Of a stretch of 64,000 bases of DNA, positions 3,244 through 22,803 are shown one piece after another. Every line of letters starts with the position of its first letter. Positions within the stretch are counted from its first letter, which is position 1. The stretch is taken from contig NZ_JAUOTO010000006.1 in assembly GCF_030546645.1 (NCBI RefSeq), forward strand, positions 186,001 to 250,000, written 5' to 3'. Source of the DNA: Flavitalea plasmicola (GTDB lineage Bacteria; Bacteroidota; Bacteroidia; Chitinophagales; Chitinophagaceae). The notes below the pieces were generated by a model that worked only from the letters and a program-made list of their open reading frames with translations, searched no databases and was not told the origin of the DNA. The position numbers and the translations under genes were made by a program.

Positions 3244-4009
3244 ACGCCCCTTGCCAGCCGAAGGCACCTGGTGGAGCCGCCGGCTCGAAGAGCCGGGCGC
3301 CCTGCCCGGAACGGGGCTCGCCGATAAAGAGGCCGCCTGGGATAAATTATATGACAGGCTCCGGGAAACGCCCCGCCGCCGAACCCAGCCCTGGTTATGG
3401 GCCGCCGCCGCCTGCCTCCTGCTGGCGCTCATCCCCGCCGCCTTCATTTTAAAGGAAAGAAGAGTGATTTCCGGTTCCCGGGACCCCAAAATAGCCATCC
3501 GGCCCAAGGCCCTCATCAACCCCGCCCGCACCTATCCCGCGCCGGCCCCGGCCCACCACTCGCCGCTTACCGCTCATGGCTCGCCACTCAAAGCTCATCG
3601 CTCACGGCTCACCGCCCCCAGCCTACAGGCCGCGCCCTTTCCTGCTCATCGCTCACCGCTCGTAGCTCGCCGCTCCCAGCTCGTAGCTCACCGCTTGCAG
3701 CTTGTAGCTTGTAGCTTGCAGCCTGCCGCCCCCCCGGCTCCCAGCTCGCCGCTCACAACTCCCGGCTCACCGCTCGCCGCTCGTAGCTCACAGCTCATGG
3801 CTCATAGCTATAAAAAACAACCCAGAGTAGTCCATATCAACGAGCTGGAACCCGCAATGCCCACGCCTTCCACGGCTGGCGAGCGGCTGAAACCCGGACG
3901 CCTCCAGGTCCGGCTGACCCAATCCGAAACCTTCAGACCCGCAACAACCTATAACAACGACCCCATAGACCATCCGATCATTCCACTTAAACACACGCAA
4001 AACCCATAA
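3221..4009 (+). CDS. Membrane protein with heptapeptide repeats, possible anti-sigma factor
   Basis: A 262-residue protein of unknown family. Residues 1-63 are hydrophilic and proline/arginine-rich. One membrane segment (WLWAAAACLLLALIPAAFIL) spans about 63-82. Residues about 112-197 are a low-complexity region with a clear 7-residue period (SPLTAHG, SPLKAHR, SPLVARR, SQLVAHR, LQLVACS). This region is the translation of a 7-bp DNA repeat (3557-3812) read through all three frames. The tail (VVHINELEPAMP) is ordinary. Its 23-base overlap with the ECF sigma gene and single membrane span suggest an anti-sigma role, but no zinc-finger, FecR or other recognised anti-sigma motif was seen. A 4-base gap leads to the gene at 4014. 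Confidence 0.7.
   Translation: MDNAKPNERPLPAEGTWWSRRLEEPGALPGTGLADKEAAWDKLYDRLRETPRRRTQPWLWAAAACLLLALIPAAFILKERRVISGSRDPKIAIRPKALINPARTYPAPAPAHHSPLTAHGSPLKAHRSRLTAPSLQAAPFPAHRSPLVARRSQLVAHRLQLVACSLQPAAPPAPSSPLTTPGSPLAARSSQLMAHSYKKQPRVVHINELEPAMPTPSTAGERLKPGRLQVRLTQSETFRPATTYNNDPIDHPIIPLKHTQNP
3557..3812 (+). repeat. 7-bp tandem repeat array A, inside a coding region
   Basis: About 36 consecutive 7-base units, such as cgctcac, agctcgt, agctcac, cgcttgc and agcttgt. The central stretch (about 3692-3720) matches the NNGCTTG consensus of the intergenic arrays elsewhere in the window. The other units are GC-shifted variants (CGCTCAC, AGCTCGC), as expected of an old, diverged array. Because 7 is not a multiple of 3, three units make 21 bases, hence a 7-residue protein repeat. 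Confidence 0.9.
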
Positions 4010-4013
4010 CATC

Positions 4014-5111
4014 ATGAAAAGACCCATCTGTACGATGCTCACCCTGTTGAGCATCCTGGGAACCGTATGCGCCCAACATTCAGTACGCGCCACCTTCGGC
4101 AAGCCATTCGGCAGGTCAGAGGAACGCATCGAAAGAAGATTCTGGATCGACCTGGGCAAAGGCAACCGCCTTTGTCTGGAGCTGGAAGACGCACGGGACC
4201 TGGCCAAATTCACCAACATCGACTCCCTGTTACTGGTATTCATTGCCGATATGGCGCCCTTTAATGATTCCCTCACCGACCCGCTCTCCTGGCACCAGAT
4301 CGACTATGTGACAGATGCCGCAGGCAAGAAAAAGGTCCGCCTGCAGACCTTCCATCCTACCGCAGCAAGCTACCTGCTGGATCAGGCGGAGCCCGCCGCC
4401 CTGCGCCTGGAACAGGATACGATCCAGATCGTCCTCGAATACCCCGCAGACGAGGGCCGGCGCCATGACGGGATCAGGCAGGACAGGTTGAGCCTCTATC
4501 TCAACGACTATCATGAGCTGCCCAACTATATCACAGGAGGATTGAATGGAAAGATCCACTGGCTGCAAAGCAATATGAAAGGCTATTGGGTGCGCGATAA
4601 GAACGGCTATCGGGCAGAGAAGGACCCCACGATCTCAGCGCCGCAGCCCGCCGGCTATGTGGCGATGGTCAATGACTACCTGGGCTCCGTAATCCAGCTC
4701 AACGTGGGAAACTACAAGAATTATTTTGCCCCTTCCTTCGGGCTGGGCATCGGCCTGCATTTCAATGGGGAATATGGGAGCCGCAGCTTCACCGCCCTGT
4801 GGCAGCCTGTTTTCCTTTTCGCGACCAATGCACAGGGACATGCGCAAACCTACAGGAATGAATTTCTCACGATCAGCATCAGCAGGGAATGGAAAGACCC
4901 TATGAACAAGCATATCATTAATCTCGTCCCTTCCCTTTCCATCGGCCGGCTGATACGACGGGACGGGGAGTTTTTTGAAAAGAATAGCTACAACCTTTTT
5001 ATAGGCCACATAAACTTATTGCGCAACAATCTTGTCCTGACGCCTGGTATGTACTTCCATGAACTTTTTAAAGAAGTGACGCCCGCCGTCAACCTCAAGA
5101 TCGACTTTTAA
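4014..5111 (+). CDS. Exported protein of unknown function in ECF sigma operon
   Basis: 365 residues beginning with a signal peptide (MKRPICTMLTLLSILGTVCA). The middle contains the polar segment LCLELEDARDLAKFTNIDSL. The second half has alternating beta-strand-like segments (FAPSFGLGIGLHFNGEYG, FTALWQPVFLFAT, INLVPSLSIGRL) and ends in aromatic phenylalanine (KIDF). This is compatible with a periplasmic or small outer-membrane beta-barrel protein. No family was recognised. It is the third gene of the sigma factor - membrane protein - exported protein cluster, which may be the signal-responsive output of that sigma factor (inference). It converges on the DUF885 gene with a 6-base gap. Confidence 0.65.
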   Translation: MKRPICTMLTLLSILGTVCAQHSVRATFGKPFGRSEERIERRFWIDLGKGNRLCLELEDARDLAKFTNIDSLLLVFIADMAPFNDSLTDPLSWHQIDYVTDAAGKKKVRLQTFHPTAASYLLDQAEPAALRLEQDTIQIVLEYPADEGRRHDGIRQDRLSLYLNDYHELPNYITGGLNGKIHWLQSNMKGYWVRDKNGYRAEKDPTISAPQPAGYVAMVNDYLGSVIQLNVGNYKNYFAPSFGLGIGLHFNGEYGSRSFTALWQPVFLFATNAQGHAQTYRNEFLTISISREWKDPMNKHIINLVPSLSIGRLIRRDGEFFEKNSYNLFIGHINLLRNNLVLTPGMYFHELFKEVTPAVNLKIDF

Positions 5112-5117
5112 ATCAAC

Positions 5118-6935
5118 CTAATTGCCTGCAGACACCTGCTTCGCCCATGCATCCATCTTTTTTTCCAACACCTCCAGGGGCATCGTCCCATCCTTCAAGA
5201 TCTCATCATGAAAATCCGCCAGCCGGAACTTATCTTTCAGCATCGTCGTGTATTTGTCCCGCAGTTCCCGGATCTTCAGCGCCCCGATCTTATAGCCCAG
5301 CGCCTGCCCCGGTATCGCCATATAGCGTTCAATCTCCGCCGTTGCCCCTTCCAGGGATATCGCTTCATTATCCATCATGTATTTAATCGCCTCCTCGCGC
5401 GACATCCCCTTCATGTGGATGGCGACATCCACCACCAGCCTGATCGCCCGGTGCATCTCATCACCCAACGCCCCCATATATTGATAAGGGTCCGTGTAAA
5501 GCCCCAGCTCCTTACCCAGAGACTCGCAATACAGCGCCCATCCCTCCTGGTAGGCATTGCCCCCGCCAAAACGCCTGAATGACGGCAGTAATGTGTCTTC
5601 CTGTTGGAGCGATATCTGGTAGTGATGGCCCGGTATGGCCTCATGCAGGAACAGCGATTCCATGCCAGAGGTAGTATTGAATCTGGTTGCATCCAGGATC
5701 GGCACATAAAAAATGCCGGGCCGCTTGCCATCCGCCGAACCCTGGTTGTATTCCGCACTGGCGCTCGCAGCACGGAATGCTTCCGTCTGACGGATCTCAA
5801 AACCCGTCCTGGGCACATGATGGAACATTTTCGCCAAAGAAGGCTGCATCGTCTGGTGGATCTTCTCAAAAGCCGCCAGCACCTCCTGCGGTGTTTTATA
5901 AGGCATGAATCGCTTATCCGTCCTCATATAGGCAAAAAAAGCCGCCAGGTCTCCCTTAAATCCAACAACGGTCTTCACGCTGTCCATCAGGCCCCGGATG
6001 CGGGCGACTTCGCGCAGACCAGTCTGGTAGATCTCTTCCGGGCGCTTCATCGTGGTCGTCTGGTCCTTCACCAGGTAAGTATAATAATCGGCGCCACCGG
6101 GCAAAGCACTGATTCCCGAAGTCGCTCTTGCCTTTGGCAGATATTCCTTCTCCAGGAAATCCGCCAGTCTTTTATAGGCAGGTACAATACTTTCCCGGAT
6201 CACCACTACATAGTCATCCTTCAGCCGCCGGATAGCCGCCGTATCCGTGGTAACTTTTTCCAGGCGCGTCGCAGGCGTATAAAAAAGGCTCTTCTCCGGC
6301 TGGTCCGTCACCAGGGCCCGCATCTCGGGGATCATCTTCACCACCAACGACCCCGGTAGTACGAAGTTTGCCGTAATCCCTTTTCTGAAATAAACGATGG
6401 CGCTATCCGCCCATGGGCCAAAAGCCCTGGCCCGATTCAGCCAGTCCTCATGATCCTTCACCGTGGCAAACGGCTGATAGCTGTCACCGCTGCCCAATTG
6501 CCCCAGCGTCAACGGCAATGCATAGAATTGGTTGAAAGGAATATAATAATAGGGGTATTTGAATGCTTCCAAGCGCGTGTTCAGCTCCCACTGCAAGATG
6601 TCGTAGCTGAGACCATCATTCTCGCCCAGGGAGCTCCTGTCAAACTTCGCAAGTCCATCTGTGAACTGAATGTAGAAATTTTTCAGGGAGTCACGATACG
6701 CATCTGCAAATTCCGCGGGCAGCTGGTCATTATATCGGGAGTCGCCATTCAGCGTGGCCTCCAGGGGTGAAAGCCGCATCCTTCCTTCATAATAATTGGA
6801 GAGGAACAGACCGAATGCCTTATTGTCTTCTTTGTTGCTTTCTTTCACTGAAGCCTCCTTTGGCATTAGCTTACAGGACACCAGCTGGACGAAAAGACAG
6901 CCTAACAATAATAATTGTCTCATTGCGTATCTCAT
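5118..6935 (-). CDS. DUF885 family lipoprotein, predicted zinc metallopeptidase
   Basis: A 605-residue protein with a lipoprotein signal (LLLLGCLFVQLVSC, lipid-modified Cys about 21), so probably attached to a periplasmic membrane face. DUF885 proteins carry an HExxxH-type zinc site. Here HEAIPGHHYQ lies near residue 429, and the conserved YQEGWALYCE, contributing a further acidic residue, near 455. The N-terminal half (LSNYYEGRMRLSPLEATLNG, YDILQWELN) is typical of the family, and the length is normal. Substrates are unknown; a peptidase role is inferred from the motif. A second in-frame ATG four codons downstream is an equally good start. It is not obviously in an operon. Confidence 0.88.
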   Translation of the reverse strand: MRYAMRQLLLLGCLFVQLVSCKLMPKEASVKESNKEDNKAFGLFLSNYYEGRMRLSPLEATLNGDSRYNDQLPAEFADAYRDSLKNFYIQFTDGLAKFDRSSLGENDGLSYDILQWELNTRLEAFKYPYYYIPFNQFYALPLTLGQLGSGDSYQPFATVKDHEDWLNRARAFGPWADSAIVYFRKGITANFVLPGSLVVKMIPEMRALVTDQPEKSLFYTPATRLEKVTTDTAAIRRLKDDYVVVIRESIVPAYKRLADFLEKEYLPKARATSGISALPGGADYYTYLVKDQTTTMKRPEEIYQTGLREVARIRGLMDSVKTVVGFKGDLAAFFAYMRTDKRFMPYKTPQEVLAAFEKIHQTMQPSLAKMFHHVPRTGFEIRQTEAFRAASASAEYNQGSADGKRPGIFYVPILDATRFNTTSGMESLFLHEAIPGHHYQISLQQEDTLLPSFRRFGGGNAYQEGWALYCESLGKELGLYTDPYQYMGALGDEMHRAIRLVVDVAIHMKGMSREEAIKYMMDNEAISLEGATAEIERYMAIPGQALGYKIGALKIRELRDKYTTMLKDKFRLADFHDEILKDGTMPLEVLEKKMDAWAKQVSAGN

Positions 6936-7053
6936 TGCGCGTGTAGTTTAAAAATATTTATCAAAACCCTTCGGATATTAGGTTTTTCTATATGCAATTG
7001 TCTCTCTAACTGTTTTTTGGCATTAAATTAGCCTTAATTTATACAACACGAAA

Positions 7054-7084
7054 TTAGCTTTTTTCGTTTGTTGAACTATCTTTG
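7054..7084 (+). promoter_or_regulatory. Candidate promoter of the OmpA-like gene
   Basis: TATCTTTG (7077-7084) is an exact TAnnTTTG -7 element; a TTAG 19 bases upstream is one mismatch from the -33 TTTG. This implies a leader of about 80 bases before the ATG at 7169. The leader contains complementary stretches (ATCGC near 7100 and GCGAT near 7125) that could fold. Confidence 0.45.
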
Positions 7085-7168
7085 ACATTATTCTATTGAT
7101 CGCCAGGTTGATCGTCTGACCATCAGCGATGAAAGAATAGTTTAATTCTTTAAATAAATGATATTACT

Positions 7169-8038
7169 ATGAAGCTTAAACAGACCCTTTTTTTCGGTGT
7201 TCTCTCAGCATTGCTTTTTACATCCTGCGTTAGCTCTAAAAAATTTAAAGCCGCCCAGGCGAAGATCGATTCTCTCACTGCAGCCAACGCAAAGCTTGCT
7301 GGTGATCTGAAAAATTGCAACGACCTTACCGCACAAGACGCCAGCCAAAAGACAGCCCTTCAGAACCAGATCGACGCACTCAACAAGCAGATCGATTTCC
7401 TGAAGCAGAACCACGACGCTACCCTCAAGCAACTGCAGGATCTTTCTGTCATCTCCAACTCCCAGGCAGAAAGCATCAAGAAATCTTTGGATAACATTGG
7501 CAGTAAAGACTCCTACATCCAGAACCTTCAGGCCGAACTGGCTCACAAGGATAGCCTGAACATGGCCCTGGTGATGAACCTGAAAGGCGCCATCGGCAAC
7601 ATGGATGACAAGGACATCAATATTAAGGTCGACAAAGGTGTTGTTTACATCGACATTTCCGATAAACTCCTCTTCAAGAGCGGAAGCTATGACGTGAACG
7701 AAGCCGCCAAGGGCGTGCTCGGTAAAGTAGCTACTGTCCTGAAAGCTCAGCCCGACATCGAATTCATGGTGGAAGGCCACACGGATAACAAGGCTTACCA
7801 TCATCCTGGTCAGCTGAAGGACAACTGGGATCTCTCCGTCAAACGTGCCACTTCCGTCGTCAGGATCCTCCAAGGTCAGTATGGCCTGGATCCCGCACAT
7901 ATCACGGCAGCTGGCCGCGGCGAATATGTTCCCGTTTCTACCAATGATACGGACGAAGGACGTGCAGCTAACCGCCGCACCCGTATCGTGATCCTGCCTG
8001 CGCTCGATCAGTTCTTCAAATTGCTTGAAAAGAAATAA
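7169..8038 (+). CDS. OmpA-family peptidoglycan-binding lipoprotein
   Basis: A 289-residue envelope protein. A lipoprotein signal ends at LLFTSC (Cys 20). Residues about 25-140 form a long coiled-coil (AAQAKIDSLTAANAKLAGDL; ALQNQIDALNKQIDFLKQN). The C-terminal OmpA domain (about 150-280) carries the peptidoglycan-binding motif VEGHTDNKAYHHPG...NWDLSVKRATSVVRIL and GRGEYVPVSTND...NRRTRIVI. It probably ties the outer membrane to the cell wall. It has its own promoter and a very strong terminator (8055-8090), so it is a single-gene transcript, likely abundant. Confident family call; the physiological partner is unknown. Confidence 0.93.
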   Translation: MKLKQTLFFGVLSALLFTSCVSSKKFKAAQAKIDSLTAANAKLAGDLKNCNDLTAQDASQKTALQNQIDALNKQIDFLKQNHDATLKQLQDLSVISNSQAESIKKSLDNIGSKDSYIQNLQAELAHKDSLNMALVMNLKGAIGNMDDKDINIKVDKGVVYIDISDKLLFKSGSYDVNEAAKGVLGKVATVLKAQPDIEFMVEGHTDNKAYHHPGQLKDNWDLSVKRATSVVRILQGQYGLDPAHITAAGRGEYVPVSTNDTDEGRAANRRTRIVILPALDQFFKLLEKK

Positions 8039-8054
8039 GTGTAATATACTAGCT

Positions 8055-8090
8055 AAGCCGTCCGCCCACTGGCGGACGGCTTCTTTTTTT
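8055..8090 (+). terminator. Strong rho-independent terminator of the OmpA-like gene
   Basis: A perfect 12-bp stem AAGCCGTCCGCC / GGCGGACGGCTT with loop CACT is followed by TTCTTTTTTT, starting 16 bases after the stop codon. Confidence 0.95.
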
Positions 8091-8159
8091 CCTCCCGCCA
8101 ATCATTTTAACCGCCTATTGTGCGTTATTTGTATTGTAACTCAACTAGTAGCCGGCTTT

Positions 8160-10535
8160 ATGAGAGGATATCTCCGCAAAATAGGGTGGACCCTGCTAAC
8201 GCTAACCTGTTGTCTCACCTGTTTTGCCGACCGGGAGCCCGCCCCCGTTGCCCGTAAAGGCCTGCTGGACCTGCGTAACACGGACCTGTCGGATCACCCC
8301 ATAAAGCTTCACGGAGAATGGGGCTTCTACTGGATGCACCTCCTCTCCCCGGACAGCCTGACGGCCGCCGCTCCGGACTTTGCACCCTATCCCCGGCTCT
8401 GGAAAGACCTCCACCTCCACGGCCGGGACTATCCCACCCAAGGCTATGCCACTTACACACTCACCATTCTTTTACCCCGAAACCGGCCCCGTCTGGGCCT
8501 GGAAGTGCCCGATACGTACTGTTCTTATAAATTATATGTCAATGGCGCCGTCCAGTCCCAGAATGGACGGCCCGGCGACACAAAAGAAACATCCACCCCT
8601 TTCTGGGCCACCCGCACCGTCGTCCTGCCCCTGGCAGAGCCGGATACCATCGTAGTGGTGATGCAGATCGCCAATTTCTGGCATGCGAAAGGCGGACCGT
8701 ATAAGGAAATACTCTTAGGCAATAAGGACGATCTCATCCAAAAGAAATACCAGGACGCCGCCTACGACTTTCTCCTGGCGGGGTGCCTCTTCATGGGAGG
8801 TCTCTTCTTCCTGGGCCTGTTCATTTTCGGCCGGCATGACAAGACCACCCTCTACTTTTCGCTCTTCTGCATCGTCTATAGCTATCGGATGGTGGGCACC
8901 GATACCTATACCCTTCACTCCCTTTTCTCCGATCTGAACTGGTTTGTCACCATTCGCATAGAATACCTGAGCCTTTCACTGAGCGTGACCCTTTTTACCC
9001 TGTACACCCGCCACCTCTATCCCGACGATGTCCACCCCATTTTCACGAAGGCGATGATCTGGTTCTGTCATACATATACAGCCATCATCCTGCTGACATC
9101 CACTGTTATCTTCACACGGTTCATGACCACATTCCTGGTGGTGATGTTCTTTTCCATCGCCTATGCCATGTTCGTTTACCTGAAGGCGGCCCGTCATAAA
9201 CGCAGCGGCTCCCTATACGCCATGTTGAGCACAGCCATCCTGCTGCTCGTCTTCCTGCTGCTGAACCTTCATTTCTTTGGGTTCATTCCGCCGCTCCGCC
9301 TCATCGTCCTCACCGCCTATATTGCCTTTTTCTTTTTGCAGTCCCTCGCCTTGTCCCACCGCTTTGCCCAGACTTTTAAAACAGCCGCCATCCAGGCACA
9401 GCAAGGCCTCCGCACCAAGTCGGAATTCCTTTCCACCATGTCCCACGAGATCAGGACCCCCCTGAATGCCGTCATCGGCATGACACACCTGCTGCTGCGG
9501 AACGAACCACGCGCCGATCAGAAAGAAGACCTGGGCGTATTGCTTTTCTCTGCCAACAACCTGCTGTCCATCGTCAATAATATTCTCGACTACAATAAGA
9601 TCGAGGAAGGGAAGATCGGCTTCGAGCAGATCCCCATGGACCTGCCCGCCATTGCCCGCAACATCGTGGCCGGCCTGAAGAATGCCGCCGGAGAAAAAGG
9701 CGTTTCCCTGTTACTGGAAGTGGACCAGCGCCTCGACCGCAAGCTCATCGGCGACCCCACCCGCACCAGCCAGGTGATCAACAACCTTGTGCACAATGCG
9801 ATCAAATTCACGAAAGAAGGCTCGGTAAAGCTGATCATTCATGCCGATCTGCTGACAGAAAGCGCCGCCACCGTCACAGTCAAGGTGGTCGACACCGGCA
9901 TCGGCATCGCAAAAGAAAAACAAAGCATGATCTTCGACCGCTTTACCCAGGCGGACTCCTCCACCTCCCGCAGCTACGGCGGCACAGGTCTCGGCCTTGC
10001 CATCACCAAAAGGATCCTGGAGTTGCAGGGCGTGGCCCTGCAATTGAAAAGCGAGCCGGGAAAAGGCTCCGAATTCTATTATACCCAAACACTTAATTTC
10101 AGCGAGGAAGCCATCGGCCAGCATGAGGAGTTCACTACATTCGCCTTCCGCGACCAGCTGCTGAAAGGCATCACCCTCCTGCTGGTAGAAGACAATCCCC
10201 TCAACGTACTGGTCGCCCAGACCATGCTGGAAAACTGCGGCGCTACAGTGGACGTCGCCACTAATGGACTGGAAGCCCTGGAAAAATTGAATGCCGCCCG
10301 CCACCGCCTCGTCCTGATGGACCTCCATATGCCCGAAATGGACGGCTACGAGGCCACCGTCCTGCTGCGGAAAAGAGGAGAGACCCTGCCCATCATCGCA
10401 CTTACGGCCAGCACACCCAAAGAAGTAGAAAGCGAAGCCTATGCCGCCGGCCTCACCGACATCGTGGTCAAACCCTTCAACCCCGACGACCTCTACCGCG
10501 TCATCCTCCAGCACGCCGGTCCAGCCAACCAATAG
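8160..10535 (+). CDS. Hybrid sensor histidine kinase with 7TMR-DISM sensor
   Basis: A 791-residue membrane kinase. After a signal segment (KIGWTLLTLTCCLTCFA), an extracellular DISM-type beta domain (about 25-185; DLRNTDLSDHPIKLHGEW) probably binds a sugar-like ligand. Seven membrane segments follow (about 195-400). The HisKA domain has the phospho-acceptor His in STMSHEIRTPLNAVIGM. The ATPase has N-box NNLVHNAIKFT, G1 VDTGIGI and GGTGLGLAI. The C-terminal receiver has its Asp in LVLMDLHMPEMDGYE and Lys in VVKPFNP. The frame is open from 8025, but that extension overlaps the upstream terminator, so the ATG at 8160 is chosen. No separate response regulator lies beside it; output may pass through a phosphorelay elsewhere. 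Confidence 0.92.
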   Translation: MRGYLRKIGWTLLTLTCCLTCFADREPAPVARKGLLDLRNTDLSDHPIKLHGEWGFYWMHLLSPDSLTAAAPDFAPYPRLWKDLHLHGRDYPTQGYATYTLTILLPRNRPRLGLEVPDTYCSYKLYVNGAVQSQNGRPGDTKETSTPFWATRTVVLPLAEPDTIVVVMQIANFWHAKGGPYKEILLGNKDDLIQKKYQDAAYDFLLAGCLFMGGLFFLGLFIFGRHDKTTLYFSLFCIVYSYRMVGTDTYTLHSLFSDLNWFVTIRIEYLSLSLSVTLFTLYTRHLYPDDVHPIFTKAMIWFCHTYTAIILLTSTVIFTRFMTTFLVVMFFSIAYAMFVYLKAARHKRSGSLYAMLSTAILLLVFLLLNLHFFGFIPPLRLIVLTAYIAFFFLQSLALSHRFAQTFKTAAIQAQQGLRTKSEFLSTMSHEIRTPLNAVIGMTHLLLRNEPRADQKEDLGVLLFSANNLLSIVNNILDYNKIEEGKIGFEQIPMDLPAIARNIVAGLKNAAGEKGVSLLLEVDQRLDRKLIGDPTRTSQVINNLVHNAIKFTKEGSVKLIIHADLLTESAATVTVKVVDTGIGIAKEKQSMIFDRFTQADSSTSRSYGGTGLGLAITKRILELQGVALQLKSEPGKGSEFYYTQTLNFSEEAIGQHEEFTTFAFRDQLLKGITLLLVEDNPLNVLVAQTMLENCGATVDVATNGLEALEKLNAARHRLVLMDLHMPEMDGYEATVLLRKRGETLPIIALTASTPKEVESEAYAAGLTDIVVKPFNPDDLYRVILQHAGPANQ

Positions 10536-10618
10536 CACCTAAACCACCCGCACCTAACCATCCCCACAATATCAAAGGCCAAAACCTTACAGCAAAAATT
10601 AGCCCCCTCCGCGGTCTG

Positions 10619-11681: not shown

Positions 11682-11687
11682 GAAGAG

Positions 11688-13856: not shown

Positions 13857-13916
13857 GCCGTAAATTAAAAAATTTAGCGGTATTTCCCTCTGGGGCATAA
13901 ATTCCACACCCTTAAT

Positions 13917-14021
13917 CAAGCTTCAAGCTGCAAGCGACAAGCTACAAGCAGGAATATATATGTTCCGCCAGCCTCCTAATCACTCTTAGCTTGCAGCTTG
14001 AGGCTTGTCGCTTGCAGCTCA
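13917..14021. repeat. 7-bp repeat array B, inverted pair
   Basis: Five reverse units (CAAGCTT, CAAGCTG, CAAGCGA, CAAGCTA, CAAGCAG; 13917-13951) are followed by a 35-base spacer. Five forward units then follow (TAGCTTG, CAGCTTG, AGGCTTG, TCGCTTG, CAGCTCA; 13987-14021). The halves are complementary enough to form a long stem-loop. It occupies the divergent gap between the antiporter and the META lipoprotein, upstream of both start codons. Confidence 0.9.
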
Positions 14022-14062
14022 CATTGGCACGCTTTTCGACCCATCAATGAAAAAACACCGGT

Positions 14063-14672: not shown

Positions 14673-14951
14673 ATGGTAGCAAAAAGCCTGATCGACCTCA
14701 CCCGGGATCTGCTGAGCAGCGGCGTGTTCGACCACCTGCCCGATAATGAGATCGCACGACTGCGCTGGATGATCATGCAAGGTCAGCGCGAAGACCAGCT
14801 GCCGCTGCAACCCTTGTTCAGCTATTGGTACAGGGGCGATTTCTATTCCCCGAATGTTTCACCCCACCTCCTGCAGCAATGCAATGAGTATCTGCAACGT
14901 ATGGGACAGCCTCTCCTCGATGCCTATGGGCAGGAGCTGTACGAGGCTTAA
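14673..14951 (+). CDS. Small hypothetical protein
   Basis: 92 residues, cytosolic, rich in leucine and acidic residues (LIDLTRDLLSSGVFDHLPDN; LQQCNEYLQRMGQPLLDAYG), with no signal peptide or membrane segment. It is predicted mostly helical and no family was recognised. Codon use is like that of its neighbours. The stop codon (14949-14951) is followed two bases later by heptamer array C, so the array is its immediate 3' flank. The inverted pair there could act as its transcript end (inference). Confidence 0.6.
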   Translation: MVAKSLIDLTRDLLSSGVFDHLPDNEIARLRWMIMQGQREDQLPLQPLFSYWYRGDFYSPNVSPHLLQQCNEYLQRMGQPLLDAYGQELYEA

Positions 14952-14952
14952 G

Positions 14953-15093
14953 CGAGCTACAAGCGGCAAGCTACAAGCCACAAGTTAGCTTATTTAAGTC
15001 CTATTCAATCCCTGGCTTGTCGCTTGGAGCTTGTAGCCTGAAGCTGTTCCCTGGCTTGTAGCTTGCAGCTTGCAGCTCGTCGCTCAAAGCTGC
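14953..15093. repeat. 7-bp repeat array C, inverted pair plus extra module
   Basis: Reverse units occupy 14953-14987 (CGAGCTA, CAAGCGG, CAAGCTA, CAAGCCA, CAAGTTA). After a 25-base spacer come five forward units at 15013-15047 (TGGCTTG, TCGCTTG, GAGCTTG, TAGCCTG, AAGCTGT). A 4-base break precedes six more forward units at 15052-15093. The last units overlap the 3' end of the convergent gene at 15084, whose stop codon is part of a unit (TCGCTCA, read as TGA on the minus strand). Confidence 0.9.
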
Positions 15094-15452
15094 CCTCTAT
15101 AATAGCCCCCCGGCCCCTCCAGCACCTTCTTCCACTGCCGCTGATGACTCTCCTGCCATTTCTTGTTCGGATGCACCCCCCAATTCACCGACTTCAGCTG
15201 CTCCCGCACAAAATCCCGTTGCTCCGGATGGACGAACATAGGATGGAGGTAAAACCATTTCGCATCCTTGGTCAGCTCCTTCCAGAAAGCGGCAAAATCC
15301 GCATAAACAGTCTCAAAGACCTTTACCTCGTCCTTGCTGTCATCATAAGTGCTGTGGCTATAAAAAAAATGGACCCCCGACAACCCCTTGACCCGGTACA
15401 AACTACCGCCGCTTTGCTCCGAGCTGATATCAAAATATAGTTCCCTCGACAT
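15084..15452 (-). CDS. Small hypothetical protein
   Basis: 122 residues, soluble, with many aromatic and charged residues (GVHFFYSHSTYDDSKDEVKV; FWKELTKDAKWFYLHP; KKWQESHQRQWKKVL). It lacks a signal peptide and its family is not recognised. It is probably a small alpha/beta cytosolic protein. The last residues (GPGGYYRGQL) and the stop codon fall inside heptamer array C, so the present C-terminus may have been set by the repeat. Its start (ATG at 15452) is 83 bases from the divergent small gene at 15536. Confidence 0.6.
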   Translation of the reverse strand: MSRELYFDISSEQSGGSLYRVKGLSGVHFFYSHSTYDDSKDEVKVFETVYADFAAFWKELTKDAKWFYLHPMFVHPEQRDFVREQLKSVNWGVHPNKKWQESHQRQWKKVLEGPGGYYRGQL

Positions 15453-15535
15453 GTTAACTCCCTCGATTTTTACGTTATTGTGGTCAATTTCAGTACCTTG
15501 AGTATAAATTCACCAATCAAACAACACCTATTCAT

Positions 15536-15694
15536 ATGGCATTGATCCCCAATAATAAGAAGAAAAAAGACGGCAAGGCCCTCGCTGGCCCGAAAAGCAA
15601 TATACCCGGATTTCCCGCTGGGAAAGGCAAAGCCAACAGCAAAGGAGTGATTAAGAACACCCGGCTGACCGGCGGTTCACAACGAGGATCCTAA
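15536..15694 (+). CDS. Very small basic protein
   Basis: 52 residues, ATG at 15536 to TAA at 15694. The composition is lysine- and glycine-rich (NNKKKKDGKALAGPKS; GKGKANSKGVIKNTR; LTGGSQRGS) and strongly basic, with no membrane segment. It could bind nucleic acid or ribosomes, but nothing more can be said. The frame is clean, with ordinary codons for the region, and it ends overlapping the last four bases of the convergent large helicase gene. It reads away from the gene at 15452, so the 83-base gap may be a divergent promoter. Confidence 0.5.
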   Translation: MALIPNNKKKKDGKALAGPKSNIPGFPAGKGKANSKGVIKNTRLTGGSQRGS

Positions 15695-18600
15695 TCCTCA
15701 TATCCGGATCTCCGCTTTTCCAGTATCAATTTTTCCATTTCAGCCTGGGCTACCTCCCCGTCGGGAAAGGTTTTCAGCTGTATCTGTCCTTTAGCACCCC
15801 GCTTGCCCCAGCGGACCACGAGTTTATTTCCATCGACAGCGGCTTCCCAGAACCGCTCATTATTGCCCTCCCGTTGGTAAAGCCGGCGGAATGGCAGCTG
15901 ATCATAGGGACTGGCCCCTGCATAACCTCCCGTGCCTACACCAACACCTGCCGACAACTCCTGCCCAAGCTCCACTTGCAGCTTGAAGCTTGTGGCTTGC
16001 AGCTCCACATCTCTCCCCACTTGCAGCTTGTCGCTTGTAGCTTGCAGCTCATGGCTCGCTTGCCGCTCCAATAGCTTACGGATGTGTTCCATGATTTTTT
16101 GTGGCTGGTGTAGCCAATCCCGTGAGAACACCTGCAGGACCTTCCACCCAAATCGCTCCAGTATAGCCGGACGCTGGTAATATTGTTCGATAAGATTGTC
16201 ATTCAAATAGTGCCGGTCGTCATCCAGCAGGATCCCCAGCCTGTAAGCCGGGTCTTCCGGCCTGGCCTTCACCGCCAGCGAACATTTGAAATCCGACTGC
16301 CCGATCTGCTCGTCCACGACATAACCCAGGGCCTGCAGCTGCTGCCGGATCTGCTGCCGTACCAGGGAAGGACGACTGTCCGCAGGACCCTCCTGCTTAC
16401 GCAGCACCAGGCTGTCCAGTATGCTCCGGGCGCCCTGCATCTGCCCCAGGCTCACCATCTCGGCATATTGCAGGAACCTTTTTAAATAATTGGCCCCTTC
16501 GTTGTATTCGTTGGTAATGGCCCCATGCCGGATGCTGCTGACCACCGCCATATGGGTTCTGGCCCGGCTGAAGAGGACATTCAATCTTTTTTCGCCGCCT
16601 TTCTTATTAATTGGGCCGAAGTTCATCAACATCCTGCCCCTGGCGTCAGGTCCATAACAGACGCTCATGATGATAATATCCCTTTCATCACCCTGTATAT
16701 TCTCCAGGTTCTTTACAATGAGCCCCGTGAACTGGTCATTTTCCGTGCGATTGTATGCCTCTTCCAGCTGTTGGGCAAACACGCCGTCTTCCTCGCCCAG
16801 CGATGACAAGGCGCCTTCGATCACATGCTGCTGCTCCTGGCTGAAAGCAACGATGCCGATACTTTCCTTTGCTTCCCTGCGCAGCAGTTCCCGCACCAGG
16901 TGCGCGATGTACACCGCCTCACCCTGGTTGCTTCTCTTCTCATACACGCTCCCCTCCAGGAAATGGTAGCTGATACTGCGGTCGAAGAGATAATCCGTCT
17001 GCTGACTGGCCTCCCGCACATTGCTGACGAGAATGGGGGGCTTCTCCGTCTTGTGGATCGTCTTATCAGGAATGGTGAGCAGCCGGCCTTCATAAAAAGC
17101 ATGGTTGCTGAAGCTGATCAGCGTCTCATAATGGCTCCGGTAGTGCCAGCTGAGCAAGGTGCTGTCCAGCTTACGGGCACCCTGCGCCAGCAGGCTGTCC
17201 ACGTCGTCGCTTAGCCATTCATCCTCCTCTCCGTCTGCCAGACCTTCCAGGTCATCCGGATCCTCTGCCTTGGCGCTGAAAAAATCCGTGGGCGGCATCT
17301 GCTTTTCATCCCCCACGATGATCGTCTGGCGGCTGCGGTAGAGTGCCGGCACCCCTTCCTCCAGCGTGATCTGGCTGGCCTCGTCGAAGATCACCACATC
17401 GAAATGATCGCTGTCCAGCGGAAGACTGTCGCTGACGCTATAGGGGCTCATCAGCCAGACAGGCTTGATATCCTTCAATACCCTGCCGCTCTCCCGCGAC
17501 GACAGCTCCCGGATGCTTTTATAGCGCATGCTTTTGCCGAACTCATTTTCCAGGATCTTTCGTCCTTCATTATAGACCTTCTTGAATTTCTTCTGCTCCT
17601 CGTTCAGCTGGCTGGCCGCCATATTGGCCAGGTCCATCTGCTGCAGGAAACGCTGCCGGATGAAGGCGCGGATCAGGTCGGCATTCACCTGTTGCAGCTC
17701 CGCATAGCACTCGCCCAATGCCTGCACCGCCTTATCCAGCGCCGGCCGGTCGATACGGGCAAACTCCCGGTTCGATTGATACACGGTCTGCAAGGCCTTA
17801 CGCGCGATCACCGCTTCCGCCTGCCTGGGAGATAACATAAGCCCGCGAAGCATGCTTTTCACACCTTCCGGCAATTCGGTAAAGCGCCGGAGCGCAGGCA
17901 GCATCTCCCGTAAGCCATCCGCATTCAGCCGGATATTCTGCAGCTCATCCCGCAGGCCTTCCAGGCTCTCCGGTGCGCCCGGATCATGCAGGCATTCTTT
18001 CAGCCGGCTTTCCAGGTCCACCAGCGGCTGGTGCAGCGAATGCAGGGAGATCACCACGGCGCCCGCCTCCGGATGACGAAGCAGATACACCAGCGAAGGG
18101 TCGTCCTTCTTTTGATGAAGGATACCGATGCCAAGCCAGGCCGTATCCGGGTTGTCCAGGCGATAATCTTCCCTCAGCCGCCGTTTTACCTGCTCCAGTA
18201 GCCGGGCCTGCTCGTATTCATCTTTTAAATGCTCCAGGATGCTGCGATAGGAAGGCTTTACGGCATGCGCTGAAAAATCATAGCAGGCCTGCAGCTGCTT
18301 CTTTAATTTTTGCCAGCCCCCGTTCAAAAAGTTCAGAAATGCTTTTTCCTGTTTGACCGCCAGGTCCAGCGCGTGCGACAGGTCCTGTTCGACAAGCTTC
18401 TCCTTCCAATGGATATTTTTCCGCAGGGCTTCCTGGTATGTTTCCTGCTGCGATTTGTATTCGTTAAAACGCCGGATGAAGGTCCGGGCTTCCTCCCCGG
18501 AGGGATCGGCGAGCCGGAAATTATCGGTCAGCACCAGGGGATGCAGCAGCACGGCAAATTGCACCAGGCTCTTCAGCCTTGCCGGATGGCTCCGGTGCTC

Positions 18601-21240
18601 CTGCGCTACCCGTGCCCCTGCCAGCTTCCGGTCCACCGCGTCCAGGAGGTCCAGCGCCTGACCCAGGGCAGCGTCCAGCATCCGATGCGGATGCTCCGCC
18701 AGGAAAATGCGTTCATGCACCTTGCTGAAAGGATGACCCGCGAAGATCGGGTCCGAACCCGCCTCTTCCAGCGCTGCTGTCAGCTGATGGACCACGCCGC
18801 TGGCGGCCTGCCACGCTGCGTAGGCAGGCAAGGCCTCCTCTTCCAATGCGGAAAGGGCCACGAGGTCCGGCCGCAGCTCGATGATGCGCTCGATCAGTTT
18901 TCTAACGGTAATGCCTATCTCCTGCTCTCCTCCGGTGCTGGTGACATGGAACTCCTTCAGCAGGTCTACCTGCCGGTTCATCCTGTCGACCAATGCGGCA
19001 CGCTGGGCCCTGAGCCCAGGCAGGTCCATCCGGCGTGCCGTGAAATCCTCGTATGTCGAGCGCAGGTTGCGGATGAACTCCCGCTTATCCTCCTGGCTGT
19101 CGTGAATATAGCAGCACAGCTCATCCAGGCCGTTTTGTTTGAGCCGGTGATAGACCACGTCCAGCGCCGCCCGTTTTTCACAGACAAAAAGGATGCTTTT
19201 ACCCCTGGCTACATAGTCCGCGATAAGATTGGTAATGGTCTGGCTCTTGCCCGTACCCGGAGGACCTTGAATGATATAGCTGTATCCCGCACGGCCTTGC
19301 AGGATAGCCCTCGCTTGTGTCGGGTCCGCCTGGATGACATGGTGCCAGTCGTCCGTCCGGTTCAGATCGAAAGGATGCTCTTTAAAGGTTCTGGGCTGCT
19401 CGCTGAACAGCGCGTCGAATACGGGGTGCTGCAGCTGCTGGTCGATCACCACATTGTAATCCCTCACCAGGCTCATCTTCTTGTAGTTGAAATTACCCAG
19501 CACCATATGACACACATCGAAATCCCAGGTATAGGGATTGTTTTCGCTCTCCGCCAGCTTGTACAGCTCCGCTTCCCGGACAGCCGGATCCCGGGCTGGC
19601 AGATCGCGCTCAACTTCCCGGGCGACGGGCTCCGCCGTCTCCATCAGCCGCTTAGGGGCGCTTTTCCTACCCCCCTGCACGAGGAACTCGAGAAAGCCCT
19701 TCTCCGTCCCGATCCTTTGACGGAAGATCTCCAGGCCCAAAGGTTGGTAGTGCTCAGGTTTATAGCTGTAAGGAATATGGTGATGGCTGCTGAGACCCGG
19801 TTGACGGCGCAGCCGCTTCCGGTAATTATGAACGGTCTGACGGGCCTCGCCATGAATGAGCCGGATCCGGGGCTTGCTGATATAGTTCAGCACGATACCC
19901 TGGTTGGCCTCGTCAATCTGGGCTTTGACGGATTGATAGAACTGGGCGGGGTCCGTTTCGTCCAGGTCCACGAGGTCCGGCAGCCGGATGCCATACAGGT
20001 CTTTCAATTGCCCCGCCAGCACCGGGTTCACCTCGGCCGCATTGTCCAATACCTTCAGCACATAGTGATCTTCCTTTAGCTTCTTGTTCTTCTTCAGGGA
20101 CACCGGAAGCAATAGCAACGGGCTTTGTATCCGTTCGTTGGGGTCCTCTTTCAGGTTGTGCCAGTTGAGGAAGGCGATCACCAGCTTCAGCTGGTTGAAC
20201 CCATATTCCTGTATGGCCCGCTGGGATTCCACCCGCACGCGGTCCAGAGAGGAAGGCAGGTAGGCATGATCGTCAAAGCGGAGGTACTTGTTCAGCACGA
20301 TCTCCTTCATGCCGCGGAACTTTTCGGCCAGTTCCTCGTTCCAGGTGAAAAGATGCTCCGGGCGAATGCTCTGGTAGTGCAGCACCACCGGCACGCTGCT
20401 GACCGTCAGGTTCACAAATCGCATGTTCGGCTTGTAATACAGCAGCCTGTTCCGACGGCTGGTATCGAACAATCGGTTGCGCAGCTTATTCAGGATGAAT
20501 GCATCCCGCTGCCTTAGCTCCTTATTGACCCAGCCAGCCACCCGGCTGAGGTCCGTTTGCTTTTCCGGATCGTAATCCCGGTAATGCTGCAGGTGCTCGA
20601 TCACATCGTAGAGGTCCTGCGTACGGCGGCTCCTGTCCAGCTCCGTCATCTCCGTGATCAGCCTGACCACCGTAGGATGGAGGCGATCATTATATTGAGA
20701 CGGGTTGGATCGGATACGGGCGAAAGACACCAGGTCATCCGGTTCATAGAGGTCCAGCCCCAGGGCCATGCTGCCCAGGATCAACCCCAGGCAGAAAATA
20801 TCCGTCTGCGGATCATGATGGCCCAACAGCTGCTCGAAACATTGATAGCCGGGTACATAGGAAGGGTAGGACAGGGGCTGCCCGAAGTCCAGGTGCACTT
20901 GCAGGTTCTCCTGCTCGATAGCATCCTCTCCCGCATCTGCACGAAGCTTTATCTTACCCACCACCTCGAAGTTCGCGGACTGCACGCCGGGGAAAAGCGC
21001 CAGCACACGGCGAAGGGCATACGAAGGGGCCCGGGCCTGCTGCTCGTCGATGTCCAGGGCTTGCTCCGTAAGGAATAAAACCTCCTCCTTTCCAAAAGGA
21101 GCCACCAGGCCCGCCTCATGGAGACCGCACACTTCGCGGAACAGGGGCAATACAAAAGCGATCACGTCGTCCGTGGTATATTCCCCTTCGTCGAAGGCGC
21201 TTCGCAGGAAAACTTTAAAATAAGTTCGGTTACTTGACAT
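15691..21240 (-). CDS. Giant SF1 helicase with pseudokinase, DUF4011, nuclease-like and WGR domains
   Basis: 1849 residues. In order: residues about 30-220 resemble a protein-kinase C-lobe (DFG at 118-120, YVPGYQCFEQ activation-loop end, DIFCLGLILGSMALG) without a glycine loop or HRD, so a pseudokinase. DUF4011 starts near 240 (RNRLFDTSRRNRLLYY). The SF1 helicase (COG1112 type) has Walker A GPPGTGKSQT near 660, a long insertion, motif II VVIFDEASQI near 1283, WHYRSHYE, and NVLFSRART near 1555. A REase_MTES_1575-like nuclease fold follows, about 1612-1720 (GYVVDEQIGQSDFKC; LGILLDDD; GWKVLQVFSRDW). A linker of 7-residue repeats (about 1728-1756) precedes a WGR domain (VVRWGKRGAKGQ). It sits 19 bases after an M48 protease gene. 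This resembles Mokosh-type defence helicases in plan (inference). Confidence 0.88.
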   Translation of the reverse strand: MSSNRTYFKVFLRSAFDEGEYTTDDVIAFVLPLFREVCGLHEAGLVAPFGKEEVLFLTEQALDIDEQQARAPSYALRRVLALFPGVQSANFEVVGKIKLRADAGEDAIEQENLQVHLDFGQPLSYPSYVPGYQCFEQLLGHHDPQTDIFCLGLILGSMALGLDLYEPDDLVSFARIRSNPSQYNDRLHPTVVRLITEMTELDRSRRTQDLYDVIEHLQHYRDYDPEKQTDLSRVAGWVNKELRQRDAFILNKLRNRLFDTSRRNRLLYYKPNMRFVNLTVSSVPVVLHYQSIRPEHLFTWNEELAEKFRGMKEIVLNKYLRFDDHAYLPSSLDRVRVESQRAIQEYGFNQLKLVIAFLNWHNLKEDPNERIQSPLLLLPVSLKKNKKLKEDHYVLKVLDNAAEVNPVLAGQLKDLYGIRLPDLVDLDETDPAQFYQSVKAQIDEANQGIVLNYISKPRIRLIHGEARQTVHNYRKRLRRQPGLSSHHHIPYSYKPEHYQPLGLEIFRQRIGTEKGFLEFLVQGGRKSAPKRLMETAEPVAREVERDLPARDPAVREAELYKLAESENNPYTWDFDVCHMVLGNFNYKKMSLVRDYNVVIDQQLQHPVFDALFSEQPRTFKEHPFDLNRTDDWHHVIQADPTQARAILQGRAGYSYIIQGPPGTGKSQTITNLIADYVARGKSILFVCEKRAALDVVYHRLKQNGLDELCCYIHDSQEDKREFIRNLRSTYEDFTARRMDLPGLRAQRAALVDRMNRQVDLLKEFHVTSTGGEQEIGITVRKLIERIIELRPDLVALSALEEEALPAYAAWQAASGVVHQLTAALEEAGSDPIFAGHPFSKVHERIFLAEHPHRMLDAALGQALDLLDAVDRKLAGARVAQEHRSHPARLKSLVQFAVLLHPLVLTDNFRLADPSGEEARTFIRRFNEYKSQQETYQEALRKNIHWKEKLVEQDLSHALDLAVKQEKAFLNFLNGGWQKLKKQLQACYDFSAHAVKPSYRSILEHLKDEYEQARLLEQVKRRLREDYRLDNPDTAWLGIGILHQKKDDPSLVYLLRHPEAGAVVISLHSLHQPLVDLESRLKECLHDPGAPESLEGLRDELQNIRLNADGLREMLPALRRFTELPEGVKSMLRGLMLSPRQAEAVIARKALQTVYQSNREFARIDRPALDKAVQALGECYAELQQVNADLIRAFIRQRFLQQMDLANMAASQLNEEQKKFKKVYNEGRKILENEFGKSMRYKSIRELSSRESGRVLKDIKPVWLMSPYSVSDSLPLDSDHFDVVIFDEASQITLEEGVPALYRSRQTIIVGDEKQMPPTDFFSAKAEDPDDLEGLADGEEDEWLSDDVDSLLAQGARKLDSTLLSWHYRSHYETLISFSNHAFYEGRLLTIPDKTIHKTEKPPILVSNVREASQQTDYLFDRSISYHFLEGSVYEKRSNQGEAVYIAHLVRELLRREAKESIGIVAFSQEQQHVIEGALSSLGEEDGVFAQQLEEAYNRTENDQFTGLIVKNLENIQGDERDIIIMSVCYGPDARGRMLMNFGPINKKGGEKRLNVLFSRARTHMAVVSSIRHGAITNEYNEGANYLKRFLQYAEMVSLGQMQGARSILDSLVLRKQEGPADSRPSLVRQQIRQQLQALGYVVDEQIGQSDFKCSLAVKARPEDPAYRLGILLDDDRHYLNDNLIEQYYQRPAILERFGWKVLQVFSRDWLHQPQKIMEHIRKLLERQASHELQATSDKLQVGRDVELQATSFKLQVELGQELSAGVGVGTGGYAGASPYDQLPFRRLYQREGNNERFWEAAVDGNKLVVRWGKRGAKGQIQLKTFPDGEVAQAEMEKLILEKRRSGYED
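15972..16058 (+). repeat. 7-bp repeat array D, inside the helicase gene
   Basis: Two modules of forward units, 15972-16006 (CCACTTG, CAGCTTG, AAGCTTG, TGGCTTG, CAGCTCC) and 16017-16058 (CCACTTG, CAGCTTG, TCGCTTG, TAGCTTG, CAGCTCA, TGGCTCG), are separated by 10 bases. On the minus strand they encode the ELQATSD/KLQV repeats in the linker between the nuclease-like and WGR domains. The modules plus spacer span 87 bases, a multiple of 3, so the frame is kept. Confidence 0.9.
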
Positions 21241-21259
21241 AATAGTATCGGATTAATCC

Positions 21260-22543
21260 TCACACCTCCTTTAAGGTATCATACGCAGCTATCATCTGCT
21301 GCCGCTGACGCTCCCATTGTTTATCGGTATAAGACAGCTCTTTCTTCATGACAGGCTCGAAAACTTCCAGCAGGCCCAGGTCCCCGGCAAGTCGCAGCGC
21401 ATACCCTGCCGGCACATCTTCCAGGTCCGGGTCCGCCAGGGCGAAGTCCAACAGGACATACGCAAAATATTCCCGAATGCTGGCATGCGCCCCAACCAGG
21501 AAAGCCTTCAGCTTTTCAATGTCCCCTTCGGCGTCCGGCGACAGGTCCGCAAAATATTGCCTGGCGAGGCTCACCACCGGTGCAGACCTGAACCACTTTG
21601 GCCGGAGATAATACACCACCAACCCCTCCGTAAGCCCGGCCAGGTTCTTTTGCGCCAGCACATCCAGCCGGTCCAGATCCATGACCCCCTCGATCATCTG
21701 CGCAATGACCGGATCGGGACCCGCCTTGCCCGAATGAACCGACGTATTCGTCCCCCCACTGGCGGAAGGCTCGTTGTCCGCGGTGTCCCCTTGCTGGCTC
21801 AATGTCCCATTACGCTCAATGTCCCCCCAAAGCTGCAATGCCCGGGTGCGGATAAAATTCTCCGGGTGGGTCAGCGATGCCGACTGGACCCCCGGCCCCC
21901 CGGCAAAAATGGCTTCCGCCTGCCGGATATAGCTGTCCGCATGCACCACGGAAAGTCCCGTCGCCATCTTCAATAGCATCGTGATCACGGGCGTAGGATC
22001 ACCCAGGACCCCACAGGCCGCCCGGTCACAATAGATCTCAGTGTACAGCCGGAACAGCCGGGCCGTTTCATACTGGGCCGCCTCACTGTCGGGACTGTTG
22101 GCGATGGCCATTATGATCCGGTCGGTGATCTCCAGCTCCCCATCCAAAAGGGAATTGAATTTTACGTGGGCCAGCTCATGGGCGATCAGCGCCAGCAGCT
22201 CCCTTTCATCAAGGATCTGTAATAATCCCCCGCTGAACACGATATGCGCCTCACCGGCCAGGCAGACAATGCTGGCATTCAGCTCCGGCTCATGGGTAAT
22301 TGCCTGGTAAGCAGTCACTGCCAGTCCACCAAGGCCTAATTTTTCCCGGGCGGCCTGGATCTTTTCATATAATAGGGGATCACTGCCTCCATTAAACTGG
22401 TAGGTGTTCTTTAAAAGCTCCGTCTTAAAGGCAGTCAGCTGCTCCTCCCTTTTCGGGGCGGCGGCAAAAAATGACCAGATCCCGGGCTGCCCTTTGAAAT
22501 AATCCCGGATCTTAACATGGTAAGGCAGCGGTTCGGATAACAT
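21260..22543 (-). CDS. M48 family zinc metalloprotease
   Basis: 427 residues from the ATG at 22543; the frame is open to a GTG at 22594, but family similarity begins later. The M48 site HELAH is near residues 122-126, and the downstream glutamate is in TEIYCDRAACG near 169, giving the usual two-His, one-Glu zinc site. GEAHIVFSGGLLQILDEREL precedes it as in other members. It differs from HtpX/Ste24 in lacking an obvious run of membrane helices, so it may be soluble. The C-terminal 220 residues, including GTNTSVHSGKAGPD and an acidic helical region, are not recognised. It lies directly upstream of the giant helicase (19-base gap), so co-transcription is likely. Pairing with the helicase suggests proteolytic control (inference). 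Confidence 0.85.
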   Translation of the reverse strand: MLSEPLPYHVKIRDYFKGQPGIWSFFAAAPKREEQLTAFKTELLKNTYQFNGGSDPLLYEKIQAAREKLGLGGLAVTAYQAITHEPELNASIVCLAGEAHIVFSGGLLQILDERELLALIAHELAHVKFNSLLDGELEITDRIIMAIANSPDSEAAQYETARLFRLYTEIYCDRAACGVLGDPTPVITMLLKMATGLSVVHADSYIRQAEAIFAGGPGVQSASLTHPENFIRTRALQLWGDIERNGTLSQQGDTADNEPSASGGTNTSVHSGKAGPDPVIAQMIEGVMDLDRLDVLAQKNLAGLTEGLVVYYLRPKWFRSAPVVSLARQYFADLSPDAEGDIEKLKAFLVGAHASIREYFAYVLLDFALADPDLEDVPAGYALRLAGDLGLLEVFEPVMKKELSYTDKQWERQRQQMIAAYDTLKEV

Positions 22544-22768
22544 TAGATCTTTTTCTGATTTGAAAGTGTGCGTCAGGACTCCATCGTCCCTCACCTGGCC
22601 TGCCTGCGCACAATTCTTTACATGTGAGGCTTAAAGCAGATACCATCAGTAAATCTAGCTAAACTTACCCTCAGTATCAATACCCCTCCGATACATTTAA
22701 CAACCCGTAAACCCTCCCGCTTCCCACCTGAGCCTCAGTCTCTTAATGTACAGCTCTTAAATGACCCC

Positions 22769-22803
22769 TGGCTTGCAGCTTGTAGCTTGAAGCTTGCGGC
22801 TAA
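22769..22803 (+). repeat. 7-bp repeat array E, upstream of the UvrD/PcrA gene
   Basis: Five forward units TGGCTTG, CAGCTTG, TAGCTTG, AAGCTTG, CGGCTAA (the last degenerate). The array ends 17 bases before the ATG at 22821, so it lies at the promoter or start of the transcript. It is the only single-module array seen. Confidence 0.9.

Follow-up and report, generated by a model that had tools for sequence, protein, structure and literature searches.

The question raised by this 64,000-nt stretch of the Flavitalea plasmicola genome (the window, in which a coordinate is that on contig C16 minus 186000) is what the tandem arrays of a 7-bp unit at five places in it are. The intergenic arrays most likely represent the two pairing arms of a small, hairpin-like element; elsewhere, this element encloses the gene of a ring protein, IVP. 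We consider it probable that the arrays are the arms of an IVP-linked element family. The best reading of the copies seen here is that they are gene-less relatives of an intervening sequence (IVS)-like element, whose arms multiplied without the IVP gene in this genome.

Heptamer arrays across the genome

Runs of four GCTYRNN units were sought on both strands of the whole genome (G000; 8,732,077 bp, 19 contigs). There were 148 + 289 overlapping matches, against 1 + 2 for the reversed pattern. The scan of four-unit runs proposed in an initial annotation of this DNA thus returned 437 matches versus three and identifies a genome-wide family. That annotation had seen no array outside 3.5–22.8 kb, which holds inside the window and fails for the rest of the genome.

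Arrays were counted in a 1.63-Mb sample from all 19 contigs (61 blocks, ~19% of the genome), which includes the window and one tile picked because of its matches; genes were called with our own simple hexamer model. The sample contained 71 arrays of at least three units and 53 of at least four. Nine of eleven control pentamers gave 0–8 arrays of at least three units; the counts for the other two were 31 and 46, and these pentamers can match the GCTYRNN arrays themselves, in a shifted register or on the opposite strand. Intergenic 5-mers recurred 889 times at lag 7, compared with 206–436 times at the other lags from 3 to 30 (multiples of 7 left aside); the GCTYRNN family accounted for most of the excess. 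A replication-strand bias, considered on the basis of the 148 vs. 289 matches, was set aside, as the sample is balanced when counted in arrays (34 on the plus and 37 on the minus strand). The end of contig C1 (L178:3848–3996) and the start of contig C2 (32–182) lie inside heptamer arrays; with two contigs ending in this way, the assembly is probably interrupted by arrays, whose count is then too low.

Across 365 units in 78 runs, the core was GCTTG in 229, GCTCA in 76, GCTCG in 54 and GCTTA in six. The two variable bases of the initial annotation were therefore retained, whereas its constant GCTTG had to be loosened to GCTYR. The variable pair after the core was most commonly CA, TA, AA, CC or TC, and rarely had G as its first base (3/287) or T as its second (2/287). 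Strict GCTTG runs of two, three, four and five units numbered 21, 22, 29 and three, with one further run of 10; six control pentamers together gave a single run longer than two units. Counted leniently, 17 of 69 arrays had four units, 29 had five, one had six, five had seven and 17 had 8–43. Unit numbers do not fall off smoothly, with a peak at four (strict) or five (lenient), and the earlier description of modules of mostly five units agrees with the lenient count.

These figures bear on the simplest explanation, that the arrays are ordinary heptamer microsatellites produced by replication slippage, of the kind known as long simple sequence repeats, STRR or TAACTGA repeats, and lie next to IVP genes by accident. 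Period 7 and a scattered taxonomic spread are indeed alike, judging from the passages of PMC4679880 used here; homogeneous arrays are present in other genomes, a few arrays in this one are long (up to 43 lenient units), and variable pairs two units apart are identical more often than after shuffling (46/131 vs. 32.1 ± 4.4). Adjacent pairs, however, are no more alike than shuffled ones (49/209 vs. 50.7 ± 5.3), so unit-by-unit slippage does not explain the arrays. Nor would slippage be expected to give a GCTTG run length that is most often four and seldom five or more, a fixed outward polarity, a common core motif, or the link to IVP described below. We regard slippage as improbable, and the plain tandem-repeat family of the initial annotation is not supported.

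Inverted pairs and their cores

Within the sample, arrays formed outward inverted pairs (CAAGC…GCTTG), 20 of them within 120 bp, and no pair in the inward order was found within 300 bp. The outward pattern, defined one base looser at the inner units than the inward one, had 148 matches in the whole genome (palindromic, with overlapping registers counted) and occurred in 10 of 394 genomes of the host's family. The more strictly defined inward pattern had no match in 28 genomes, and the reversed control of the outward pattern matched once each in G266, G313, G329 and G355. Terminal inverted repeats, as in MITEs, are thus present, in the outward pairs only.

Gene-less copies have a core of mostly 15–40 bp between the arms, with a GRCTTA motif in common. 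Among the cores of 29 compact pairs, GACTTA occurred eight times and GGCTTA six times (expected 0.15 and 0.26). The common motif indicates that the gene-less copies are related, in line with the shared process that the initial annotation had suspected. That the core is itself palindromic was considered and rejected (mean arm 3.45 vs. 3.39 shuffled, no excess). When 27 gene-less pairs were folded as RNA, the mean z-score was −4.59 and 26 fell below −2, as had been anticipated for the two reverse-then-forward pairs of the window.

The IVP gene of this genome

One pair of arms in this genome encloses a gene. The arms at C11:281829–281863 and C11:282266–282293 (element C11:281829–282293) flank a 116-codon frame that contains the genome's only match to PF05635 (23S_rRNA_IVP; C11:281903–282217, E 3.6e-32) and also matches TIGR02436. 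This copy has GCTTGNN arms like those of the gene-less copies, and its predicted fold (470 nt, −153 kcal/mol) pairs the arms with the gene inside. The nearest relative found for the arrays is the IVP (S23p) intervening-sequence element, rather than the cyanobacterial STRR heptamers proposed earlier. The gene-bearing copy carries IVP, which is not known as a transposase; no systematic search was made for another parent. Three IVP proteins had no match among the PADLOC defence families.

Arms at IVP loci across taxa

IVP genes are linked to heptamer arms across taxa. The flanks of a first set of 31 IVP loci, which had the top scores in a longer list, were inspected by eye ahead of any test: most of the loci displayed were enclosed by inverted short-period arrays, the unit of which differs between loci. 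A second set of 76 further loci from a public scan was tested afterwards with unchanged statistics. These come from the best 80 of at least 585 confirmed stretches, with four dropped for flanks under 150 bp, and so are the loci nearest the query. The first protein alignment used 19 of the 31 IVP proteins and that for the public scan used eight; no open frame was obtained at L195 and L209, where an internal stop interrupts it.

The inverted match of the 200-bp flanks exceeded 16 at 27 of 31 loci vs. none of 30 distant flank pairs in the first set, and at 52 of 76 loci vs. none of 69 distant pairs in the second. The cutoff of 16 is the maximum of the distant flanks and was picked after the shuffled null (99th percentile 27.2) had also been seen. 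The best lag between 5 and 12 was 7 in 37/62 and 84/152 near flanks, compared with 9/61 and 7/145 distant ones. Clear three-unit arrays of period 7 were present in 150 of 214 near flanks vs. 10 of 206 distant flanks; the corresponding numbers of flanks (near vs. distant) were 30 vs. 12 for period 5, 10 vs. 7 for period 6, 22 vs. 0 for period 8 and six vs. one for period 9. Small non-IVP genes passed the inverted test in 1/55 cases in the relatives G018 and G004 (best lag 7 in 3/110 flanks) and in 3/157 cases in the array-rich F. plasmicola genome (35/314 flanks).

Judged by record title, 13 loci fall outside Bacteroidota; 11 of them scored above 16, and the top-scoring one (a Clostridia record) was not a heptamer match. 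A crude rule based on the longest frame placed both neighbours on the strand of the IVP gene at 61 of 72 loci; most copies could thus share a transcript with an operon. By eye, from translations, several of the junctions resemble what we take to be leuA-leuB, carA-carB, sdhA-sdhB and thiolase-acyl-CoA dehydrogenase. The purine fraction was 0.58 in left arms and 0.44 in right arms (79 loci), and 0.53 in distant left flanks. At L185, L186, L187, L188 and L211 the inverted repeats on either side are GGCAACGAG-like, with a repeat length of 8 or 9 bases in place of 7; some loci of this group adjoin what looks like leuA-leuB. The right flank of L246 has ~27 heptamers, well above five, so long expansions do occur.

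Co-occurrence of IVP genes and heptamer families

PF05635 was detected in 21 of 29 genomes searched and was absent from six same-genus genomes (0–1 array matches), G192 and G287. At least five GCTYR matches were present in 20 of 22 genomes with IVP (G000 included) and in none of eight without (p-value 7.7e-6, an optimistic value since the genomes are related and were partly chosen for array content).

A second genome-wide family was predicted from the arm unit AGAATNN of the IVP loci L190 (G320) and L191 (G116), a unit unused in choosing genomes, and the prediction held. Four-unit AGAATNN matches numbered 106 in G116, 12 in G320 and 10 in G243, all with IVP genes, and zero in G192 and G287, genomes of the same genus without IVP. 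Elsewhere there were five in G390, one each in G179 and G051, and none in the remaining 20 genomes. By coincidence, the reversed control TAAGANN had 83 matches in G389, a genome whose IVP locus (L202) has TAAGAAG-type arms; it also had 26 matches in G367 and 18 in G409. Another reversed control, RYTCGNN, is itself frequent in certain genomes (among them G313 with 112 matches, G546 with 49 and G525 with 47), a sign that there are additional heptamer families built on different units. At L141, L142, L143 and L144 of G091, heptamer arms are embedded in tandem units of ~101–137 bp that also carry a hairpin-like GTCGCCGTAGGCGAT stretch.

Arrays of the window and their junctions

With an array defined as at least three consecutive GCTYR units spaced 7 bp, the scan recovered all five loci of the initial annotation within a few bases and found no further array in the window:

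3565–3613, 3644–3720 and 3744–3806, plus strand: array A, three runs of mostly GCTCR units, not an outward pair
13915–13949, minus strand: left arm of array B, five CAAGC units
13950–13988: core of array B, 39 bp separating the two arms
13989–14023, plus strand: right arm of array B, five GCTYR units
14951–14978, minus strand: left arm of array C, touching the TAA stop of gene 14673–14951
15015–15035, plus strand: first right arm of array C, from the scan for at least three units
15054–15088, plus strand: second right arm of array C, overlapping the stop of the convergent gene 15084–15452 (minus strand)
15981–16001 and 16026–16060, plus strand: array D, two runs inside gene 15691–21240 (minus strand)
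22771–22798, plus strand: array E, a lone right-type arm of four units

On the IVP reading, B and C are gene-less copies of the element, and E looks like a lone arm. The B pair sits between divergent genes, and E ends 23 bp upstream of the called start of gene 22821–25169 (plus strand). Arrays A and D lie within genes. A is inside a 262-codon gene (3221–4009), downstream of a gene for an ECF-type sigma factor (by Pfam); in G018 and G004 the orthologous proteins, counted from the first Met, are of similar length (~259 and ~256 aa) and array-free. D occupies a hypervariable interdomain linker in an alignment with five orthologues, all array-free. The two look like replacements of dispensable linker sequence, and we do not claim them as IVP-type elements. 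The gene that holds D encodes an 1849-aa protein with DUF4011, AAA_11/AAA_12 helicase, REase_MTES_1575 and WGR domains, a layout familiar from candidate anti-phage helicase-nuclease proteins.

Arrays were gained since the split from the two relatives G018 and G004. The orthologous junctions, those of B, C and E among them, were array-free in four of four cases in G018 and three of three of the same junctions in G004. Junctions with arrays were longer by a median of 98 bp (G018) and 91 bp (G004), whereas array-free junctions differed by −5 bp (n = 41) and −8 bp (n = 35), respectively.

In our gene calls, copies are located between or within protein-coding genes (rRNA genes were not searched for), and their outer edges lie at gene ends. 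Among the arrays listed, many begin within ~10 bp of a stop codon, which often forms part of the first degenerate unit; several end 11–23 bp upstream of a called start codon, others 47–94 bp. Of 56 non-genic arrays, 14 lay in convergent gaps totalling 23 kb and 10 in divergent gaps totalling 47 kb. This placement, the frequent contact with stop codons and the strong predicted folding are what one would expect of mRNA hairpins that serve the host at gene ends, as terminators or stability or processing sites, and that are held by selection, with IVP having settled in them later. Yet the orthologous junctions of two relatives do without arrays, copies are also found within genes and between divergent genes, and no consistent T-run was seen by eye among the arrays listed. 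Host-serving hairpins are, in our judgement, an unlikely origin.

Being palindromic, intergenic and numerous, the arrays could also be REP-like palindromes moved by a Y1 transposase (RAYT), and Y1_Tnp genes do exist in this genome. One of them, encoding a 198-aa Y1_Tnp-like protein, is in the window (25981–26577, plus strand). With relatives at 1–4 copies in all 23 genomes searched, it has the look of a gene that has settled, not of an active insertion sequence. The same count speaks against RAYT-driven spread: PF01797 stays at 1–4 copies in the 23 genomes whether array-rich or not. In addition, the array nearest the 198-aa copy is E, ~3 kb off, and there is no array of at least three units in the 10 kb around a second, 160-aa copy (C14:780607). 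We consider this origin very improbable.

Evidence against an IVP-linked origin

A number of results weigh against the arrays being arms of an IVP-linked family. Within this genome the link rests on a single IVP locus, and no decayed IVP genes were found between other arms in the 1.63 Mb at E 0.05. G180 and G389 have IVP genes but no GCTYR arrays, a finding that fits the link only if each locus has its own arm unit. In G243, the arms of the single IVP locus examined are GTTTCG-like, not AGAATNN, and the AGAATNN arrays of that genome are thus not tied to an observed IVP.

The statistics of the arms are also less clear-cut under stricter controls. Only 10 of the 76 second-set loci exceeded the 99th percentile of shuffled flanks, and relative to mismatched loci one of 31 exceeded the 99th and 19 the 95th percentile, a control that is inflated because it includes homologous loci. 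After cuts for arm match and periodicity, 55 of 107 loci were kept for a heptamer-permutation test, in which 10 arm pairs beat all permutations of heptamer order. In the inner register, the variable bases of the two arms matched at 7/52 vs. 0.221 between elements. On these last two results we rejected the idea that the arms are exact inverted copies of each other.

Other difficulties lie in the window and its junctions. Arrays A and D, within genes and unpaired, are only partly explained. B lies between divergent genes, so a transcript shared with the neighbours cannot be general. No target-site duplication was seen by eye at the four G018 and three G004 junctions, where flanks have diverged and some sequence has apparently been replaced.

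A possible mechanism

In its full form the element begins with an arm of some five heptamers, continues with an IVP gene (~116 codons; PF05635, TIGR02436, a four-helix bundle) and closes with a complementary arm. It is intergenic, mostly with both neighbours on its own strand. Upon co-transcription with the neighbours, the left arm could pair with the right arm into a stem whose loop contains the gene or core; this stem might be cut out or masked with the neighbours spared, as RNase III cuts rRNA IVSs. Excision of this kind is suggested by the complementary borders, the S23p gene in the loop and the RNase III excision of rRNA IVSs; by that analogy, cutting or masking of the stem in RNA is a near-even prospect. 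The IVP ring would probably be what recognizes the arm, although this binding is putative and put forward tentatively. The single IVP gene may act in trans to maintain the gene-less copies. As for movement of the element, we infer it only.

A more specific and, in our view, doubtful proposal is that IVP is a five-fold ring taking one heptamer per subunit, hence one pentamer per five heptamers. Each subunit would bind the constant bases, the two variable bases would be spacer, and an arm would have five units. The arm would then be the protein's own label, distinct for each IVP lineage, and palindromes with the label would be kept or copied. Both PF05635 structures, 2gsc and 2rld, have five chains, and 2gsc is titled as five four-helix bundles in the part of PMC10053308 drawn upon. 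The mode of unit number in IVP arms was 5, 5, 5, 4 and 3 at thresholds of 0.5, 0.55, 0.62, 0.7 and 0.75. Where five is the mode, 58, 65 and 49 of 150 arms had five units; at the third of these thresholds (0.62), 46 had four. The drop of the mode to four or three at stricter thresholds speaks against the ring, as does the small 5+2 excess (0.67 vs. 0.705). An arm of this size could alternatively reflect RNA geometry, as 33 bp make three turns of A-form RNA. TRAP is a symmetric ring of 11 subunits that binds one short RNA repeat per subunit, with two-base variable spacers; its likeness to IVP, whose binding is putative, is an analogy only, TRAP being an unrelated protein with 11 subunits. If true, the ring would account for why arms stop at five units, why the spacer bases are free and why the unit differs between loci, and an orphan protein family present in many phyla would gain a function.

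Comparison with known systems

REP/RAYT and MITE families consist of short palindromes with many gene-less copies beside one or a few gene-bearing ones. The elements described here are like them in their palindromes and abundant gene-less copies, and differ in their tandem heptamer arms and in that no transposase link was found. TAACTGA direct repeats are likewise intergenic 7-bp repeats, partly in Bacteroidetes, but consist of one exact unit, are almost all direct with one inverted case, and lie mostly upstream of start codons; the passages searched in their description do not mention an IVP gene (PMC4679880).

As far as the parts of the sources used here go, heptamer arrays (PMC4679880), IVSs with S23p in rRNA (PMC4990558) and the resemblance of PF05635, in sequence and structure, to Avd of diversity-generating retroelements (PMC10053308) are already known. 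In the literature searched, with most subscription journals outside its coverage, we found neither IVP genes within inverted heptamer arrays nor gene-less amplification of IVP arms. The PF05635/TIGR02436 proteins are widespread, with two solved structures, and have no known function according to the passages of PMC4990558 drawn upon. An inverted array of about five heptamers would be a generic partner for them, making IVP function directly testable through binding. The link is one way to account for the scattered intergenic heptamer arrays of Bacteroidota and other groups, and may bear on nucleic-acid handling by the related Avd proteins.

The closest known system is the rRNA IVS, which, in the sections of PMC4990558 relied on here, has complementary borders, an S23p gene in the loop, RNase III excision and a sporadic distribution. 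The elements described here share with it the protein family, the gene in the loop, the complementary borders and the sporadic distribution. They differ in lying between protein genes, by our gene calls, whereas rRNA IVSs lie in rRNA genes and are cut by RNase III; they also differ in having arms of about five degenerate heptamers and numerous gene-less relatives. The IVP link connects rRNA intervening sequences with elements inside ordinary operons.

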